Below, in pieces: positions 55,127 through 63,750 of a stretch of DNA of 64,000 nucleotides. The notes beneath the pieces were generated by a model, which was given only the letters and a program-made list of their open reading frames with translations, was not told where the DNA came from and searched no databases. Source of the DNA: Bacteroides fragilis. Its GTDB lineage: Bacteria; Bacteroidota; Bacteroidia; Bacteroidales; DTGW01. Numbering within the stretch: position 1 is the first letter of the stretch; the number at the start of each line of letters is the position of its first letter. A program made the position numbers and the translations under genes. Where the stretch lies: NCBI GenBank assembly GCA_945889005.1, contig CAMDBI010000016.1:1-64000 (forward strand), given 5' to 3'.

Positions 55127-55525
55127 TTACATCTGTTTATTAAAAACATCCTGAATGGTTTCAAAAAGAAGTTTTTTATTAACTGGTTTGGTGAGGTAGT
55201 AGTTGCAGCCAGCGGAAAGGCATTTTTCTTTATCTTCTGTTAAGGCATGTGCGGTATTGGCAATAACTGTCAAATTGGGCAAAAACTCTTTAATTTTTTT
55301 TGTTGCCTGGTATCCATCAAGTTCGGGTAAACGCATATCCATAAGTACAACATCAAATGTATTTTCTTTTCGGCAAAATCTCACAGCTTCAAGACCTGTT
55401 GTTGCATGTGTAATTTTAATCATATTTTCAGATAGCAATTCTTTAATTAATTCAAAATTAAGTATATCGTCCTCGACGATTAATACATGTTTTGAAGACC
55501 AATCATATATTTTTTTTTCTTCCAC
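55127..55525 (-). CDS. Stand-alone response-regulator receiver protein
   Basis: A 132-residue CheY-like protein: HVLIVEDDILN acidic pair, phospho-acceptor Asp63 in LMDMRLPELDG, NTAHAL and Lys113 in YLTKPV. No output domain follows. The style (VIANTAHALTEDKEKCLSAG) is that of receivers attached to hybrid kinases. It is divergent from the hydrogenase sensor cluster, 192 bp away, so it could act in the same circuit, but no kinase with a His acceptor is encoded there. Confidence 0.9.
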   Translation of the reverse strand: MEEKKIYDWSSKHVLIVEDDILNFELIKELLSENMIKITHATTGLEAVRFCRKENTFDVVLMDMRLPELDGYQATKKIKEFLPNLTVIANTAHALTEDKEKCLSAGCNYYLTKPVNKKLLFETIQDVFNKQM

Positions 55526-55673: not shown

Positions 55674-55681
55674 TATATTTG
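55674..55681 (+). promoter_or_regulatory. -7 promoter box TATATTTG of the hydrogenase sensor/HydABC cluster
   Basis: A perfect TAnnTTTG 36 bp before the ATG at 55718, giving a leader of about 30 nt. It is the clearest promoter upstream of the co-directional genes from 55718 onward. Confidence 0.6.
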
Positions 55682-55717
55682 TAATTCAAATTAATCGTTT
55701 ATTAATTCTATTAAAGC

Positions 55718-56062
55718 ATGACCATTGGTAAAATTGCGGAATTGTTAGGTGCAAACGTTATTTGTGGCGAAAAGTGGCTTGAAAAAGATATTGAATATGC
55801 CTTTGCATCGGATCTCATGAGCGATGTACTGACTATCAATACCAATAAACTTTTGCTCATAACTGGGCTCGTTAATATTCAAACCATTCGAACAGCCGAA
55901 ATGTCGTTTGCTCCGGCTATTTTATTTGTGAGAAACAAAAAAACTACAAATGAAATGCAAAAATTGGCAAATGAAAATGAAATGGTTCTTCTAGAGTTTC
56001 AAGGCTCAATGTTCAGAGCATCGGGAATATTATTCAATTCAGGTATAAAACCGGTATACTAA
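55718..56062 (+). CDS. DRTGG-domain protein 1
   Basis: A 114-residue protein made of one DRTGG domain: MTIGKIAELLGANVICGEKW, then YAFASDLMSDVLTINTNKLL and ATPase-free strand-rich remainder. DRTGG domains occur beside CBS and phosphotransacetylase domains and in stand-alone form near [FeFe]-hydrogenases; their ligand is uncertain. It is paralogous to the protein at 58004-58339 (SDLMSDV against SDLLSDV). First gene of the cluster, 11 bp before the ATPase gene. Confidence 0.82.
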   Translation: MTIGKIAELLGANVICGEKWLEKDIEYAFASDLMSDVLTINTNKLLLITGLVNIQTIRTAEMSFAPAILFVRNKKTTNEMQKLANENEMVLLEFQGSMFRASGILFNSGIKPVY

Positions 56063-56073
56063 AACTTTGAAAC

Positions 56074-56490
56074 ATGCACTTTGAATATAAGATAGAAGGA
56101 GGGAATTTTACAAATGCAGGTTTTGCTTCGAGTGAAATAAAAAAAGTACTTAAACAGTTAAATATCGATTTTAATATTTTGAAAAAGATCGTTATTGCAA
56201 TGTATGAGGCAGAGGTAAATATTGTAGCCCATGCATACAGAGGTATTGTTAAAGTCGATATTGATCCCTACGATATTAAAGTGAGGTTTGAAGACGAAGG
56301 GCCAGGTATACCCGACATTAAACAAGCCATGCAAGAAGGGTTTTCGACTGCCAGCAACGAAGTTCGACAAATGGGCTTTGGAGCCGGAATGGGGCTTTCA
56401 AATATAAATAAAAATACCGATTCGCTTTATATTACCAGCGAAGTGGGAAAAGGTACTGTAGTAGAATTTTTAAAAAAACTGAGAGTTTAA
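56074..56490 (+). CDS. RsbT/RsbW-like GHKL ATP-binding protein
   Basis: A 138-residue single-domain GHKL ATPase with N-box MYEAEVNIVAHAYRG, G1-box VRFEDEGPGIPD and G2-box MGFGAGMGLSNINK. There is no dimerisation/His domain, so it resembles the anti-sigma/serine kinases RsbT and RsbW rather than a histidine kinase. It would phosphorylate a Ser/Thr partner, perhaps the DRTGG proteins encoded beside it. No STAS partner gene is visible. Confidence 0.87.
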   Translation: MHFEYKIEGGNFTNAGFASSEIKKVLKQLNIDFNILKKIVIAMYEAEVNIVAHAYRGIVKVDIDPYDIKVRFEDEGPGIPDIKQAMQEGFSTASNEVRQMGFGAGMGLSNINKNTDSLYITSEVGKGTVVEFLKKLRV

Positions 56491-56565
56491 TTACTAATTA
56501 CAAATGACTAATTACTAATAAAATAAAACAATGCTTTAATATTAGATACTTTAGACAACAAGATC

Positions 56566-56628
56566 CACAGTTCACGGTCCACGGTCCACAGTCCACGATC
56601 AACGGTCCACGGTCTACGATAAACGATT
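56566..56628 (+). repeat. Nine in-phase heptamer repeats (consensus cacggtc) ending at a start codon
   Basis: Units: cacagtt, cacggtc, cacggtc, cacagtc, cacgatc, aacggtc, cacggtc, tacgata, aacgatt. They run without a gap and end 3 bp before the ATG at 56632. Transcribed, they would occupy the translation-initiation region. Confidence 0.85.
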
Positions 56629-56631
56629 ATT

Positions 56632-58017
56632 ATGGAAGACAAACATTTTCATCATGCACTTAAATTTATGGAAGAAACCTGCTATGGTTGCTCCCATTGC
56701 ATGCGTGTTTGTCCGACCGAAGCTATTCGTATTTGCAATGGTAAAGCAACTTTGCTCGAAAACCGTTGTATCGACTGTGGCGAATGCTATCGAGTTTGTC
56801 CAGTTTCGGCTATTTATGTCGAACAAGACGATTTTAACAAAATATTTAATTTTAAACACCGCGTAGCTATTGTTCCAAGTGTATTGGTGGGGCAATTTAA
56901 AAGCGCTATTGCTACCGAAGATATATATGCCACGCTTATAGATATCGGATTTACTCATATATACGAGATCGACAATAGTGTAGAAATTGTAATCGATCAG
57001 TTTCACGAATACATGAAATTGAAGCCCGAGCCTCGTCCGCTTATATCTTGTTTTTGCCCTGCAATTGTACGTCTTATACAAGTTCGATTTCCATCTCTTA
57101 CCGAGAACATTATTCCTATTAAGCCCCCTATCGACATTGCCTCTCATTACTATAAAAAACAACTTATCGACAAAGGTGCAGCCCCCGAAGATATTGGTCT
57201 TTTTTACCTTACACCTTGTGCCGCTAAGATTGCAGCCGTCAAAAGCCCTGTTGGAGAAGATGTGTCTGTAATTGATGGAGTTATCAATATGGATTTAATA
57301 TACAATCGCATATTGCGACACATCAATACTCATAAAGAATCGGCACAAAGGTTTATTGAACGCGACCATGTTTCGTCAAATGGTGTTCAATGGAGTTTGA
57401 CAAAAGGCGAAGCAAACAATATGCCTGGTCGTTGCATGGCAATTGACGGTATGCACAATGCTATCGAATTTCTTGAAAAAATTGAGAACGATGAAATTAC
57501 AGGAATAGATTTTCTCGAAATCCGTGCTTGCGACGAAAGCTGTGCCGGAGGTATTTTACTATCTGCCAATCGTTTTACAACAGTCGAACGTATTCGAAAA
57601 AGAGCGCAAAACTATCATACCGACGAGATCAAACAAGCCAAACATAAGGGTATTAACGATTATATTGAATATCTTAAACAGCATATTTTTGTCGAAAAAA
57701 TTAGACCTCGACCTATAATGAAACTCGACGAGGATACTCAGAAAGCCCTCGAAAAGGTTCAGAAGGTAAGAAAGCTTATGTGCTTTTTACCCGGGTTCGA
57801 CTGCACAGCGTGTGGCTCTCCATCGTGTCAGGCACTTGCACAGGATATAGTTCAAGGCAATGCTCAGTTGACCCATTGTGTTTTTATGCAAAAGAAAATG
57901 GAACGCAATGGCAAATTGAGCAACGATACTGCATACAACATTATTGAAAAAGTTTGGGGCAAAAATCGCCTCGAAAAAAACTGCAACAAAAAAGGAGCTG
58001 AAAATGAAAGTTTATGA
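56632..58017 (+). CDS. [FeFe]-hydrogenase-like H-cluster sensor protein (no proton-shuttle Cys)
   Basis: A 461-residue iron-sulfur protein. Residues 10-65 hold two [4Fe-4S] motifs (CYGCSHCMRVCP, CIDCGECYRVCP). Residues about 75-330 are an H-cluster domain. Its ligand cysteines are kept (C142 in SCFCPA, C196 in TPCAAK, C300 and C304 in RACDESCAGG), but the catalytic Cys next to the first ligand is Phe141 and the Glu after PC-x2-K is Ala. A C-terminal 4Fe-4S module (LPGFDCTACGSPSCQ, near 390) follows. Such group C-like proteins sense H2 or redox state rather than turn it over. Start: ATG at 56632, behind the heptamer repeats. Confidence 0.88.
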   Translation: MEDKHFHHALKFMEETCYGCSHCMRVCPTEAIRICNGKATLLENRCIDCGECYRVCPVSAIYVEQDDFNKIFNFKHRVAIVPSVLVGQFKSAIATEDIYATLIDIGFTHIYEIDNSVEIVIDQFHEYMKLKPEPRPLISCFCPAIVRLIQVRFPSLTENIIPIKPPIDIASHYYKKQLIDKGAAPEDIGLFYLTPCAAKIAAVKSPVGEDVSVIDGVINMDLIYNRILRHINTHKESAQRFIERDHVSSNGVQWSLTKGEANNMPGRCMAIDGMHNAIEFLEKIENDEITGIDFLEIRACDESCAGGILLSANRFTTVERIRKRAQNYHTDEIKQAKHKGINDYIEYLKQHIFVEKIRPRPIMKLDEDTQKALEKVQKVRKLMCFLPGFDCTACGSPSCQALAQDIVQGNAQLTHCVFMQKKMERNGKLSNDTAYNIIEKVWGKNRLEKNCNKKGAENESL

Positions 58018-58339
58018 AATAGCCGAAACAATTGGTCTTCAACTTGTTTCAGGAAATGGAGGGGTCAATAATACTGTTCGAGACGGATATGTGTCTGATC
58101 TACTAAGCGATGTTATGGGCAATGCCCAACAAGGAGATATTTGGGTGACACTTCAAACTCACAAAAATATTGTAGCCGTAGCTTCACTTAAAGAACTTGC
58201 TGCAATTGTTATTATTGGCGGAAACAAACCCAATCCCGATGCTATAGAGCAAAGCAACAACGAAAATATACCTATGTTTATTACTTCAAAATCGAATTTT
58301 GAAATTTCCGGATTGCTTTTTCAAGCGCTCAGAAAATGA
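58004..58339 (+). CDS. DRTGG-domain protein 2
   Basis: A 111-residue DRTGG protein from the ATG at 58004, overlapping the sensor gene by 14 bp and preceded by the Shine-Dalgarno aaaggag. Sequence: MKVYEIAETIGLQLVSGNGG, then RDGYVSDLLSDVMGNAQQGD and LAAIVIIGGNKPNPD. Paralogue of the first DRTGG protein. The tight overlap implies translational coupling with the sensor and physical partnership. Confidence 0.85.
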   Translation: MKVYEIAETIGLQLVSGNGGVNNTVRDGYVSDLLSDVMGNAQQGDIWVTLQTHKNIVAVASLKELAAIVIIGGNKPNPDAIEQSNNENIPMFITSKSNFEISGLLFQALRK

Positions 58340-59076
58340 AGTTTTATAAAGGAGATATACATATTCACTCTGTACTCTCACCCTGTGCTGAATTAGAAAT
58401 GAGTCCTTCTAATATTATTTTGACTGCTAAAGAAAAAGGGCTCGATTTTATTGCAGTTACCGACCACAACTGTACCAAACAAACACAAGTAACTTGCGAA
58501 ATTGGTCTTAAACATGGAATTTTTGTGCTTCGTGGAGTCGAAGTAACATCTAAAGAAGAAGTTCACTGTCTTTGCTTTTTTGAGAATCAAGAAACAACTA
58601 ATATGTTTCAAGTATATATTGAAGAGCATCAACAAAAAATTCCATATAATCCAAAATTGTTGGGCTATCAAGTTTGTGTCGACGAATCGGAAAACATTAT
58701 TGAAGAAATTGACTATTATTTAGGAATGGCATTAAATGTCGGAATTGACGAATTAAGTAAAACTGTTCATGCCTTGAATGGAATCTTTATCCCGGCACAC
58801 ATCAATCGTAGCCGTTATTCATTGAAATCGCAATTGGGTTTTGTCCCCCCCGATATCGATGCCGATGCTTTTGAAATTTTTAACCGGAGCAATTTAGGCG
58901 ATTTTATAAAAGAAAATACATATTTGTCGGGTCGTTCATTTATTAAAAATTCCGACTCGCACCAATTGCAACAGATTGGCAATAGTTTTTCATCATATTA
59001 CATCGAGGAGCCTTCGTTTCAAGAGTTTCGAATGGCACTTGCCCGAAAAAATCAAAGATTTGTCGAAATTCAATGA
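58336..59076 (+). CDS. PHP-domain phosphoesterase
   Basis: A 246-residue metal-dependent phosphoesterase. The PHP motifs are complete: FYKGDIHIHSVLSPCAELEM (H-x-H), FIAVTDHNCTKQ (DH), LRGVEVTSKEEVHCLCFF (E and H), IPAHINRSRYS and FIKNSDSHQLQQIG (SDSH). ATGA overlap with both neighbours. In this cluster it could remove a phosphate placed by the GHKL ATPases or degrade a nucleotide messenger. Family identity is firm, substrate is not. Confidence 0.9.
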   Translation: MKFYKGDIHIHSVLSPCAELEMSPSNIILTAKEKGLDFIAVTDHNCTKQTQVTCEIGLKHGIFVLRGVEVTSKEEVHCLCFFENQETTNMFQVYIEEHQQKIPYNPKLLGYQVCVDESENIIEEIDYYLGMALNVGIDELSKTVHALNGIFIPAHINRSRYSLKSQLGFVPPDIDADAFEIFNRSNLGDFIKENTYLSGRSFIKNSDSHQLQQIGNSFSSYYIEEPSFQEFRMALARKNQRFVEIQ

Positions 59077-59621
59077 AAGAACTATCATTACATATTATGG
59101 ACATTGCACAAAATTCAATTCGTGCAGAAGCAACATTTATCGAAATTTCGATCGAAGAAAATCTTGTTTTAAATATATTATTTATCTGTATAAAGGATAA
59201 TGGCAAAGGAATGGATAGCGATACCCTTGCCCGATCTATCGATCCGTTTTATACATCAAGAAATACCCGTAAAGTGGGTCTTGGGCTTTCGTTGCTCAAA
59301 CAAAATGCAGAGATGGCTGGAGGCTCGTTTACTATTGAATCATTAGAAAAGATTGGAACTACTGTAAAGGCTAACTTTCAACTAAACCATATCGATAGAG
59401 CCGAAATGGGAGACCTGCCCGGAGTTATTACCCTGCTTGTCGGCGCAAATCCAAATTTGGAATTTGTTTATACACACAATGTTAACCATCAAATTTATAT
59501 TTTTGATACTAGAGAAATAAAAGAAGCACTCGACAATTTGCCCTTAAACCTGCCAGAAGTGCTTGCCAATCTAAAAGAGATGATTACAGAAAATTTAAAA
59601 GACATCCAAGCTTCAACCTAA
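59073..59621 (+). CDS. GHKL ATPase (histidine-kinase-like) of the hydrogenase sensor cluster
   Basis: A 182-residue protein: ELSLHIMDIAQNSIRAEATF (N-box), CIKDNGKGMDSDTLARSIDP (G1), FYTSRNTRKVGLGLSLLKQN (F and G2 boxes). The C-terminal 60 residues are an extra helical segment. There is no His phospho-acceptor domain. It overlaps the PHP gene by 4 bp. Second GHKL ATPase in the cassette, closer to histidine-kinase CA domains than the first. Confidence 0.88.
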   Translation: MKELSLHIMDIAQNSIRAEATFIEISIEENLVLNILFICIKDNGKGMDSDTLARSIDPFYTSRNTRKVGLGLSLLKQNAEMAGGSFTIESLEKIGTTVKANFQLNHIDRAEMGDLPGVITLLVGANPNLEFVYTHNVNHQIYIFDTREIKEALDNLPLNLPEVLANLKEMITENLKDIQAST

Positions 59622-59755: not shown

Positions 59756-60145
59756 ATGACAAAAGTTAAATCTCTTGACGACCTTCGAATGATGAAAGAT
59801 CAGCTCAAATCGCGATTAGATCTTCGAGAAAAAAGCAGTAATGCCGATAGACTGGTTCAAATAAAAGTTGCGATGGCAACCTGCGGAATAGCATCAGGTG
59901 CAAAAAAAATAATGGACTTTTTTATAGAAGAGCTCAATAAACGAAACATCGATGCCATTGTTACACAAACTGGCTGCATGGGATATTGCTATGCCGAACC
60001 AACGGTCGAAATACTATTGCCTGGTAAAGAACCAGTTGTATATGGCCATGTTAGTATTGAAAAAGCCGACGAAATCATTGAGAAATATATTAAAAATGGT
60101 GAATTGATAGACGGTATCATTCCTATTACTTACAAAACAATATAA
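59756..60145 (+). CDS. Thioredoxin-like [2Fe-2S] ferredoxin of the hydrogenase operon (HndB-like)
   Basis: A 129-residue protein with a thioredoxin-like [2Fe-2S] fold: MATCGIASGAKKIMDFFIEE and TQTGCMGYCYAEPTVEILLP carry the cluster cysteines. It corresponds to HndB of NADP-reducing hydrogenases and to the HydC/HydB-linked small ferredoxins. A coiled N-terminus (KSLDDLRMMKDQLKSRL) is typical. Preceded by the Shine-Dalgarno aaaggag, 21 bp before the HydB gene. Confidence 0.9.
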   Translation: MTKVKSLDDLRMMKDQLKSRLDLREKSSNADRLVQIKVAMATCGIASGAKKIMDFFIEELNKRNIDAIVTQTGCMGYCYAEPTVEILLPGKEPVVYGHVSIEKADEIIEKYIKNGELIDGIIPITYKTI

Positions 60146-60165
60146 TTTACCGGGAGGATAAAAAT

Positions 60166-61959
60166 ATGTCGAATTATAAAATGCACCTTATGGTTTGTGG
60201 CGGTACTGGTTGCAAATCGTCTCAAAGCAGCATCATTGCCGAAAACCTCAAAAAGTCTCTCGAAGATACCAGCCTCGACAACGATGTACAAGTAGTTGTT
60301 ACCGGTTGTTTTGGTTTTTGCGAAAAAGGTCCAGTTGTTAAGGTTTTGCCCGACAACACGTTTTACACACAGGTTAAACCCGAAGATGCAGCGGAAATTG
60401 TACGCGAACACATTGTTAAAGGTCGTAAAATTGAACGTTTGCTGTATGTCGACCCCAAAACCGATAAAGCAGTAAGTGAATCGAAAGATATGGGGTTTTA
60501 CCAAAAACAACTTCGTATAGCCCTTCGCAACTGTGGCTTTATTGACCCCGAAAATATTGAAGAAGCAATTGCGCGCGATGCTTATGCAGCTCTTGGTAAA
60601 GCACTTACAGAATATACTCCTCAACAAACTATTGATATTGTCAAAAATTCTGGTCTTCGTGGTAGGGGAGGTGCTGGCTTTCCTACAGGATTGAAATGGG
60701 AAATAACCAGCAAAGTTGATGGTTCCGAAAAATACATTGTTTGTAATGCCGACGAAGGCGATCCCGGAGCATTTATGGATCGCTCTATTCTTGAAGGCGA
60801 CCCTCATTCTGTAATTGAAGCAATGGCAATTGGCGGCTATTGCATTGGTGCATCAAACGGTTTGGTATACATCAGAGCCGAGTACCCGTTGGCAATCGAT
60901 AGACTCAAAATAGCTATTAGTCAAGCTCGAGAATACGGTTTGTTGGGTAAAAACATTATGGGTACTGGTTTCGATTTCGATATTGAACTTAAATATGGTG
61001 CCGGAGCATTCGTTTGTGGCGAAGAAACTGCTCTTATTCACTCTATGGAAGGCGAACGTGGCGAACCTACTTTCAAACCCCCATTTCCTTCAGAAGCTGG
61101 TTATAATGGGAAGCCTACAAATGTCAACAATGTTGAGACATACGCCAATATACCTCCCATTATTCTCAAAGGTGCCGAATGGTTTTCTTCAATCGGTACC
61201 GAGAAATCTAAAGGTACAAAGGTTTTTGCACTTGCCGGGAAAATAAATAATGTTGGACTTATCGAAGTTCCTATGGGTACAACTTTACGCGAAGTTATAT
61301 TCGACATTGGTGGCGGTATTAAAGACGGTAAGAAATTTAAATCGGTTCAAACTGGCGGACCTTCAGGTGGTTGCCTCACCGAAAAACATTTAGACATTCC
61401 GATCGATTACGACAACCTGTTGGCCAATGGCTCAATGATGGGTTCGGGAGGTATGATCGTTATGGACGAAGGCAATTGTGCTGTGGCAATGGCCAAGTTT
61501 TATCTCGAATTTACTGTCGAAGAATCATGCGGAAAGTGCGCTCCATGCCGCATTGGAAACAAACGTCTTATGGAAATTCTCGAACGCATTATATCAGGCA
61601 AAGGATCGATGGACGATCTCGACTTACTTCGCAACCTAAGTCATGTAATACAAGACACATCGCTGTGTATGCTTGGTGGTTCATCGCCTAACCCCGTACT
61701 TTCGACTCTCAACAATTTCTACGACGAATATGTGGCTCATGTCAAAGACCACAAATGCCCTGCCGGCGAATGTAAAGCATTGCTGCAATATTTCATCGAA
61801 GCCGAACACTGTGTTGGTTGTACCGCTTGTGCTCGAAACTGCCCTGTTAACGCTATTTCCGGAGAACGCAAGCAACTTCATGTTATAAACCAACAAATTT
61901 GTATAAAATGTGGTGCCTGTGTCGAAAAATGTAAGTTCAATGCTGTTGTTGTTCAATAA
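60166..61959 (+). CDS. hydB: HydB/NuoF-type NADH-binding subunit of the electron-bifurcating-type hydrogenase
   Basis: A 597-residue subunit. The N-terminal thioredoxin-like [2Fe-2S] domain (VCGGTGCKSSQSS, GCFGFCEKG) is followed by the NuoF core: FMN/NADH site GLRGRGGAGFPTGLKWE, CNADEGDPGAFMDRS, FVCGEETALI, an SLBB domain and the [4Fe-4S] motif ESCGKCAPCRIGNKRL. Two C-terminal ferredoxin clusters follow (CVGCTACARNCPVNAI, CIKCGACVEKCKFNAV). It oxidises NADH or reduces NAD and feeds HydA. Shine-Dalgarno gggagg. Bifurcation itself is inferred from the HydABC family. Confidence 0.95.
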   Translation: MSNYKMHLMVCGGTGCKSSQSSIIAENLKKSLEDTSLDNDVQVVVTGCFGFCEKGPVVKVLPDNTFYTQVKPEDAAEIVREHIVKGRKIERLLYVDPKTDKAVSESKDMGFYQKQLRIALRNCGFIDPENIEEAIARDAYAALGKALTEYTPQQTIDIVKNSGLRGRGGAGFPTGLKWEITSKVDGSEKYIVCNADEGDPGAFMDRSILEGDPHSVIEAMAIGGYCIGASNGLVYIRAEYPLAIDRLKIAISQAREYGLLGKNIMGTGFDFDIELKYGAGAFVCGEETALIHSMEGERGEPTFKPPFPSEAGYNGKPTNVNNVETYANIPPIILKGAEWFSSIGTEKSKGTKVFALAGKINNVGLIEVPMGTTLREVIFDIGGGIKDGKKFKSVQTGGPSGGCLTEKHLDIPIDYDNLLANGSMMGSGGMIVMDEGNCAVAMAKFYLEFTVEESCGKCAPCRIGNKRLMEILERIISGKGSMDDLDLLRNLSHVIQDTSLCMLGGSSPNPVLSTLNNFYDEYVAHVKDHKCPAGECKALLQYFIEAEHCVGCTACARNCPVNAISGERKQLHVINQQICIKCGACVEKCKFNAVVVQ

Positions 61960-61983
61960 TTTATACTGAAAAGGATTTAAATC

Positions 61984-63750
61984 ATGATAAAAGTAATCAT
62001 AGACAATAAGGAAATAGAAGTCGAGAAAGGCACATCTATTTTAAATGCTGCAAAAAAAGTAGGAATTAAAATACCCTCACTCTGCTATCTCAATCTCGAA
62101 GATCTGAAAATTGAGAATAAACCTGGGGGGTGTCGAATTTGTGTTGTTGAAGTAAAAGGACGACGCAACTTGGCTCCGGCATGTGCTACCGAATGTGCCG
62201 AAGGAATGACTATAAACACTCATACCGTAAGAGTGCTCAATGCTCGTAAGACCGTAATGGAACTCATTTTGTCGAACCATCCATTCGAATGTCTTGTTTG
62301 TGCTAAGTCGGGTATATGCGACCTTCAGAAACTGGCCCATGACCTAGGTATTCGAAAGATACATTACCAAGGCGAAAAATCGTCGTTCCGAGAAGATACT
62401 TCACCATCTATTATTCGCGAAATGGACAAATGTATACTCTGTCGTCGTTGTCAGACTATGTGCAACGACTTTCAGACTGTTGGCGTTTTGTCTGCCATAA
62501 ATCGCGGATTCCATTCGGTAATTGCTCCAGCCTTTGAAATGAACCTCGACCATTCGACCTGTACCTATTGTGGACAGTGTGTTGCCGTGTGTCCTACAGG
62601 TGCATTAACAGAAGTAGATCACACCAATGCTGTAATTCGTGCTTTGGCAAATCCGAAGAAAAAGGTAATTGTCCAAACTGCACCGGCCGTTCGTGCAGCT
62701 CTTGGCGAAGAATTTGGTATGGAACCAGGCACATTGGTTACAGGGAAATTGGTTTCTGCATTGCGCCAGCTTGGTTTCGATTATGTGTTTGATACCGATT
62801 TTGCTGCCGATCTTACGATTATGGAAGAAGGTACAGAATTTTTAAGTCGCCTCGAGCGTTTTCTCAATGGCGACAAAACTGTAGCCATGCCAATGCTTAC
62901 ATCGTGCTGTCCGGCTTGGGTTAAGTTTATCGAACACCAGTTCCCCGATATGCTCGATATTCCTTCGACTGCCAAATCGCCTCAACAAATGTTTGGTGCG
63001 ATTGCAAAAACATATTTTGCCGAAAAACTTGCTATTAGCCGCGAAGAAATGGTGGTTGTTTCCATAATGCCTTGTTTGGCCAAAAAATACGAATGTTCGC
63101 GCGAAGAATTTAGTCACAATGGCAATCCCGATGTCGATCTAGCCATCTCGACTCGCGAATTGGCAAATTTGATCAAACAATCAAACATCGACTTCAATTC
63201 ATTGCCCGACGACGATTTCGACCGTCCTTTGGGCGAATCGACAGGTGCAAGTGTTATATTCGGCACAACTGGTGGAGTAATCGAAGCTGCTGTTCGTACA
63301 GCTTACGAAGTACATACCGGCAAAAAACTACCAAAGTTAGATTTTGAGGAATTGCGTGGCCTCGAAGGTATTAGACGTGCAACGATCGATTTCAATGGAT
63401 TGCCTCTTAATATAGGTATTGCTCATGGTTTGGGAAATGCTCGTAAACTACTCGAAGAAGTAAAAACCGGCAAAACAAATTTCCATGCTATTGAAATAAT
63501 GGCTTGTCCCGGAGGCTGTATTGGTGGTGGTGGGCAACCTCTGCACCATGGCGATTCAAAAATACTCAAGGCTCGACAAGCTGCTATTTACCGAGAAGAC
63601 AAAGATAAGCCAATACGCAAATCGCACGAAAACGAATCGGTAATGAAGCTATACGAAGAGTTTCTTGGTAAGCCAAATAGCGAAATGGCGCATCACTTGC
63701 TACATACCGAGTATTTCGACCGAAGCAAAAAAACAATTATTATAGAATAA
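61984..63750 (+). CDS. hydA: Catalytic [FeFe]-hydrogenase subunit HydA
   Basis: A 588-residue group A hydrogenase. A [2Fe-2S] domain (C34, C50, C53, C67), a His-Cys [4Fe-4S] site (NHPFECLVCAKSGICDLQ), two [4Fe-4S] clusters (CILCRRCQTMC, CTYCGQCVAVCPTGAL) and the H-cluster domain: P1 TSCCPAWVKFIE with the proton-shuttle Cys, P2 IMPCLAKKYE, P3 IMACPGGCIGGGGQP. The small-subunit-like tail ends in LLHTEYFDRS. All catalytic residues are present, in contrast to the sensor at 56632. Maturases HydEFG are not in the window. Confidence 0.97.
   Translation: MIKVIIDNKEIEVEKGTSILNAAKKVGIKIPSLCYLNLEDLKIENKPGGCRICVVEVKGRRNLAPACATECAEGMTINTHTVRVLNARKTVMELILSNHPFECLVCAKSGICDLQKLAHDLGIRKIHYQGEKSSFREDTSPSIIREMDKCILCRRCQTMCNDFQTVGVLSAINRGFHSVIAPAFEMNLDHSTCTYCGQCVAVCPTGALTEVDHTNAVIRALANPKKKVIVQTAPAVRAALGEEFGMEPGTLVTGKLVSALRQLGFDYVFDTDFAADLTIMEEGTEFLSRLERFLNGDKTVAMPMLTSCCPAWVKFIEHQFPDMLDIPSTAKSPQQMFGAIAKTYFAEKLAISREEMVVVSIMPCLAKKYECSREEFSHNGNPDVDLAISTRELANLIKQSNIDFNSLPDDDFDRPLGESTGASVIFGTTGGVIEAAVRTAYEVHTGKKLPKLDFEELRGLEGIRRATIDFNGLPLNIGIAHGLGNARKLLEEVKTGKTNFHAIEIMACPGGCIGGGGQPLHHGDSKILKARQAAIYREDKDKPIRKSHENESVMKLYEEFLGKPNSEMAHHLLHTEYFDRSKKTIIIE

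Follow-up and report, generated by a model that had tools for sequence, protein, structure and literature searches.

How do anaerobes control their bifurcating or NADH-linked hydrogenases as H2 builds up? The question is raised by six genes that lie ahead of such a hydrogenase in the window analysed here, the first 64,000 nucleotides of contig CAMDBI010000016.1 from a genome deposited as Bacteroides fragilis (a 3.26-Mb draft, 99.4% complete; the genome and its relatives are Bacteroidales). All six open reading frames (ORFs) named by the original prediction are present in the predicted order and on the forward strand (55718–59621), ahead of hydCBA. They encode two DRTGG-like proteins (D1 and D2), two GHKL ATPases (K1 and K2), a putative sensory [FeFe]-hydrogenase (HydS) and a PHP-family phosphoesterase (PHP), arranged as D1-K1-HydS-D2-PHP-K2, and the last four genes overlap, by 14 bp (HydS/D2), 4 bp (D2/PHP) and 4 bp (PHP/K2). 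The domain labels, assigned from Pfam and NCBIfam profile scores against gathering scores or cut-offs, also stand, with the caveat that both DRTGG matches fall below the Pfam gathering score; a fold match obtained with a relative's D1-K1 fusion supports them.

The genes had been read as a phosphorylation circuit that reads H2 and controls hydABC. Our analysis suggests that they very likely form a regulatory module, whereas an H2-reading phospho-switch specific to hydABC is not established. The reading we prefer, at a probability of about 45%, is an accessory SpoIIAB-type switch module in which a DRTGG protein stands in place of STAS and which would modulate HydBC-containing NADH-linked complexes, with HydS as one replaceable input.

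The gene set is well conserved among relatives. D1-K1-HydS is contiguous in all of the 80 Bacteroidales loci fetched for comparison, 66 of the 80 also contain D2-PHP and 58 contain K2, and HydCBA comes next in most. Five loci have the reverse block order, D2-PHP-K2 before D1-K1-HydS; the blocks swap order and yet stay together, so that each moves as a unit. Where HydABC is not adjacent, it is located elsewhere in the genome in 16 of 20 cases, and in the Firmicute Subdoligranulum D1-K1-HydS-D2-PHP is divergent from K2-HydCBA. Parabacteroides distasonis also has an annotated copy of the module. Synteny in dozens of genomes excludes a chance grouping. The same association is seen in co-inheritance across 149 genomes of the order Bacteroidales, where all 42 genomes with HydS also have D1 and PHP. 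Counted as both, first only, second only and neither, D1 and PHP give 46/2/1/100, while HydS and HydA of NCBIfam group A6 give 41/1/54/53 (p = 4e-9). The genome with HydS but no HydA (G001) was dropped as a counter-example, its HydB being truncated at a contig end. Both lines of evidence bear out the earlier claim of a conserved gene set tied to an NADH-linked hydrogenase. Among the fetched loci, four module-bearing drafts (L078, L081, L091 and L095) are without HydA A6 above the cut-off, which may reflect incompleteness.

HydS is absent from 54 of the 95 genomes with HydA A6, and HydA copies with and without the module belong to one clade of 65–76% identity. The module is accessory, not essential, which makes a regulatory role more likely than a need in assembly. 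A factor that uses the two ATPases for assembly, repair or maturation of HydBC-containing Fe-S flavoprotein complexes would suit the HydCB neighbourhood, which is constant whatever the catalytic subunit, and GHKL proteins can be chaperone-like. However, K1 is SpoIIAB-like and not Hsp90-like, and many genomes carry a same-clade HydCBA without the module, so the complex works without it. We consider such a function very unlikely.

K1 (56074–56490, 138 aa) is a SpoIIAB/RsbW-type GHKL ATPase. Its best family match is the anti-sigma F factor SpoIIAB (TIGR01925 spIIAB, E = 1e-19), at 70.7 bits against an equivalog cut-off of 135; K1 is related to SpoIIAB but is not SpoIIAB itself. It keeps the E45xxxN49, DxGPGI and GFGAGMGL boxes, which correspond to the N, G1 and G2 boxes with the catalytic Glu. 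K2 (59073–59621, 182 aa) is by Pfam a bare, stand-alone GHKL ATPase with a C-terminal region containing HIDRxxxGD, and keeps N14, DxGxG and GxG. Judging by these intact residues, both proteins are probably ATP-competent, as had been proposed, with K1 SpoIIAB-like in sequence and fold. Pfam detects the ATPase domain alone in K1 and K2, with no DHp/HisKA domain carrying a phospho-accepting His, and by domain content neither would be a two-component histidine kinase. No STAS or SpoIIE match was obtained in the module with Pfam or NCBIfam, the remaining genome not having been searched for them; DRTGG and PHP would occupy their positions.

D1 (55718–56062, 114 aa; motif FASDLMSDVL ... TGLxNxQTIRTAEM) and D2 (58004–58339, 111 aa; motif YxSDLLSDVMG ... 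WxTLQTHKN) match the DRTGG family PF07085 with 17.7 bits (E = 0.003) and 23.9 bits (E = 4e-5), the latter just below the gathering score of 25.2. A sequence search of the PDB with D1 alone gave no match. D1 and K1 are one fused protein in two genomes (G069 and G145; L135 and L136), and the model of the L136 fusion combines a SpoIIAB fold (1til, TMt 0.85) with a DRTGG domain, its D1 part matching the DRTGG structures 3l31 and 2ioj. D1 and D2 share the motif SDL[ML]SDV, invariant among aligned orthologues (81 for D1) and conserved throughout the DRTGG proteins of the module. Of the motif's Ser residues only Ser35 persists in divergent copies that have Ala or Cys in place of Ser31; in the fusion model it is located in a short helix after the loop bearing Ser31.

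The arrangement is reminiscent of the SpoIIAB-SpoIIAA and RsbW-RsbV pairs: K1, with its SpoIIAB-type fold and ATP boxes, invariably neighbours a small alpha/beta protein in which a helix begins at a conserved Ser, and the two are sometimes fused. It differs in that D1 is DRTGG and not STAS, and in that the module contains neither a sigma factor nor a PP2C phosphatase. It seems plausible that K1 acts as a SpoIIAB-type ATP-binding switch or kinase and physically works with D1, which would take the place of the STAS protein SpoIIAA/RsbV in classical partner switching. Ser35 of D1 (and of D2), at the helix start, is the best candidate acceptor.

PHP (58336–59076, 246 aa) scores 30.6 bits against PF02811, above the gathering score of 26.4, and its metal ligands D7, H9, H11, D43, H44, E69, H77, H155, D207 and H209 are invariant in 28 diverse sequences. 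The structures nearest to its model are those of EndoQ, RNase AM and an AMP-bound nucleotide phosphoesterase (2yb1), and by NCBIfam its sequence is closest to the TrlF family. PHP is thus predicted to resemble the EndoQ/TrlF nucleic-acid or nucleotide phosphoesterases more than protein phosphatases. Because enzymes with the nearest folds have nucleic acids or nucleotides as substrates, dephosphorylation of a protein is not to be assumed; the metal site of PHP is intact, and the phosphatase-like label is doubtful. We found no published demonstration of phosphorylation in such modules.

These similarities raise the possibility of a nucleotide signal, in which DRTGG and CBS domains would bind an adenine nucleotide or dinucleotide, PHP would hydrolyse it, and K1 and K2 would be ATP-driven conformational switches without any protein phosphorylation. 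The nearest solved DRTGG structure is the CBS-DRTGG region of a Clostridium perfringens pyrophosphatase (3l31), whose fold D1 shares, as it does that of AF1212 (2ioj), and tandem CBS domains are fused to K1 in two HydS-less genomes (G215 and G396; L180 and L181). Unlike the C. perfringens protein, the module has no pyrophosphatase domain. Against a nucleotide signal, the module encodes no nucleotide-making enzyme, and the intact SpoIIAB-type catalytic Glu and ATP boxes of K1 fit a kinase. We regard such a signal as improbable. In the SpoIIAB-type switch that we prefer, a second arm made up of D2, PHP and K2 would reset the signal or relay it.

HydS (56632–58017, 461 aa) consists of an [FeFe]-hydrogenase H-domain, a ferredoxin domain and a C-terminal FeS domain (PF04060), with no PAS domain in the Pfam scan. 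Group D (M2e) enzymes are defined by the lack of PAS, a C-terminal Cx2Cx4Cx16C, a non-conserved C299 and replacement of M353 by Ser or Thr (PMC8163306). In HydS, CTACGSPSCQALAQDIVQGNAQLTHC has exactly this C-terminal spacing, the proton-relay position C299 is occupied by F141 (Phe or Tyr in nearly all Bacteroidales copies) and the M353 position by Thr (T194). With every sequence mark tested present, HydS is a putative sensory [FeFe]-hydrogenase of group D. The H-cluster cysteines C142, C196, C300 and C304 are kept in 81 of 81 HydS sequences, and also in divergent relatives. No HydS relatives were found in viral contigs.

Group D enzymes, for example TamHydS of Thermoanaerobacter mathranii, Cthe_0335 and TTE0887, have been known since at least 2012 to lie upstream of bifurcating hydABC beside a kinase (PMC3561251; PMC3608648; PMC8163306). 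The genomic setting of HydS is thus not new, having already been noted in Firmicutes, and the expectation that related sets occur near hydrogenases of other anaerobes agrees with this literature. The present locus likewise has a HydS of this subclass upstream of a trimeric NADH-linked hydABC, with a gene for a kinase-like ATPase in the intervening stretch, and the same replacements of C299 and M353, C-terminal motif and lack of PAS. It differs from those examples in the Phe/Tyr at the C299 position and in the Arg that nearly all Bacteroidales HydS carry at the M497 position. In the published group D accounts that we found, the neighbour named is a kinase or a histidine kinase-like ATPase; D1, D2 and PHP do not appear there as a unit, and nor do the versions without HydS or with other catalytic partners that are described below. 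Group C (M2f) sensory [FeFe]-hydrogenases of Ruminococcus albus and Thermotoga (TmHydS), which have PAS and a Ser/Thr phosphatase (PMC6776011; PMC10055695), are similar in that an H-cluster protein that has an Fe-S cluster at its C-terminus is coupled with kinase/phosphatase-like genes and a second hydrogenase. In the module there is no PAS, PHP stands in place of a SpoIIE-type phosphatase and the partner proteins are different.

Is HydS then the centre of the module? In four genomes (G032, G037, G089 and G146; loci L130, L131, L132 and L133) the genes run D1-K1-D2-PHP-K2, with HydS cleanly missing between K1 and D2 and none found elsewhere in the genome. A tree of K1+D2+PHP places the losses of HydS in three separate Bacteroidales clades, and one HydS-less locus, L131, is the sister of the window and its closest sampled relative (support 0.98). 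L130 and L133 have almost no conserved residue altered. In L131, 13 of 40 conserved K1 positions are changed while the ATP-site residues are kept. HydS is optional and dispensable, and because the five-gene versions of G032, G037 and G146 sit beside hydCBA, the H-cluster protein is not a necessary core, contrary to the original prediction.

A phosphorylation circuit centred on HydS, sensing H2 and controlling hydABC expression or flux, would agree with the presence of all H-cluster ligands in HydS and with the published group D setting (PMC3561251). Besides the modules lacking HydS beside hydCBA, it has to face a 2026 study in which H2 left the C-terminal cluster of TamHydS unreduced (PMC13104023), and none of the module's genes encodes a DNA-binding protein. 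Furthermore, in G340 and G504 HydS is the sole protein with an H-domain (PF02906) and sits in a [NiFe] cluster. HydG was not found in these two genomes, in a search that also gives no maturase match in some HydA genomes; their HydS may have an incomplete H-cluster. We tone this down as proof because a search of the same kind gave no HydF match in 14 of the 95 HydA genomes. Those 14 (G003, G072, G105 and 11 further Bacteroidales, all with group A6 HydA) either were missed by the search or have hydrogenases that lack part of the maturation set; HydG was also without a match in the three tested, G003, G072 and G105. Taken together, we judge a HydS-centred circuit unlikely.

The catalytic partner of the module also changes. 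In G089 (L132), HydC-HydB is followed by a 900-aa molybdopterin subunit of the formate dehydrogenase (FDH) type, with FdhD- and MobA-like genes upstream (named from sequence, not by profile scan). Shortly downstream of this HydS-less, FDH-linked module lies a 622-aa sensory-type H-domain protein, with a likely SpoIIE-type phosphatase as its neighbour (L170 8–3076, G089:C98). The neighbours of a divergent module version in G069 and G145 are NuoE and a HydB relative, and in G145 (L136) the next gene encodes a molybdopterin protein of 766 aa. In five other Bacteroidota (G340, G504, G348, G215 and G396; loci L180–L184) it adjoins NuoE/HydC/HydB together with a [NiFe] hydrogenase and Hdr-like genes; the NiFe subunits are Pfam-confirmed in G340, and the Hdr and remaining NiFe genes are named from sequence. 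The constant companion of the module is the HydBC electron-transfer core and not the [FeFe] catalytic subunit, and an H2 reader for hydABC is too narrow a description, because FDH and [NiFe] genes are adjoined as well.

Gene content, synteny, co-inheritance, intact catalytic residues, D1-K1 fusion, HydS loss and partner change are observations; kinase activity, the acceptor residue, the group removed by PHP, the target and the direction of control are what we infer. As target we propose NADH-linked complexes of the cytoplasm whose common base is the HydB-HydC (NuoF/NuoE-like) pair. The neighbouring HydBC enzyme would be tuned according to the switch state; since the module encodes no dedicated transcription factor, direct binding to the enzyme or its modification is the likelier route. 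HydS, where present, would feed in H2 or electron pressure through its H-cluster; it appears replaceable, by K1-fused CBS domains in some lineages, and is absent in others. Several points weigh against this proposal. The module encodes no STAS partner and no PP2C phosphatase, the fusion model (pTM 0.67) gives an uncertain arrangement of its domains, and the case for direct action on HydBC comes from gene neighbourhood. No HydS examined has lost any of the four H-cluster cysteines, which argues for a role of the cluster wherever HydS is present, and the drift of the L131 K1 could be decay following HydS loss.

The hydrogenase genes downstream (59756–63750) encode HydC, a thioredoxin-like [2Fe-2S] subunit (59756–60145), HydB, a NuoF-like FMN/NADH subunit (60166–61959), both by Pfam/NCBIfam, and HydA, an NADH-dependent [FeFe]-hydrogenase of group A6 (61984–63750; NF040763, 910 bits against a cut-off of 765). 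A NuoE-like gene of 161 aa follows hydA just beyond the end of the window (L169 872–1357, G000:C16) and also in L132, L133 and L134, and is possibly a fourth subunit of the complex. A second HydB-HydA pair, about 50% identical, is frequently found some kilobases ahead of D1 (L031, L033, L036, L044 and others).

As for transcription, a single promoter ahead of D1 had been claimed. The element TATATTTG (55674–55681, +) conforms to the Bacteroidota -7 motif. With 101 occurrences in the window against 101 expected, however, this motif is found at exactly the chance rate, and the element is a weak candidate. A single transcript for the six genes is likely, and put no higher because of the 141-bp gap between K1 and HydS, which is unusually long and contains a 7-bp tandem repeat (TCCACGG, about 8 copies, 56564–56625). 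TAATTAC repeats lie 5' of it (56488–56519). The gap repeat may be a recent insertion that splits the operon. Rex-like sites of the TTGTTA-N6-TAACAA type (at most 2 mismatches) precede D1 in 16 of 78 relatives' loci, against 0.98 expected and a maximum of 5 in 200 shuffles, and in L130 D1 has a rex-like gene next to it. No site of this type is present in the window, where the best candidate has 4 mismatches. The operon looks Rex-controlled in many relatives, where the operator would give a separate route to transcriptional control by NADH/NAD+. An orphan response-regulator receiver protein is encoded divergently from D1 (55127–55525, −); it was rejected as a module member because none recurs there in other loci.

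It is conceivable, though we hold it doubtful, that the module represents a new class of post-translational partner switch, in which a SpoIIAB-type kinase acts on a DRTGG protein, PHP resets it, and HydBC complexes with [FeFe], FDH or [NiFe] partners are controlled; HydS would be a plug-in sensor, in some lineages perhaps without a complete H-cluster. Group D 'sensory' hydrogenases have been characterised spectroscopically, and to our knowledge no signalling partner has been assigned to them. Likely partners of HydS can now be named as D1 and K1, which are fused in relatives. The focus would thereby move from the effect of H2 on HydS to the effect of D1 and K1 on HydBC, for which strains lacking HydS would serve as natural controls.

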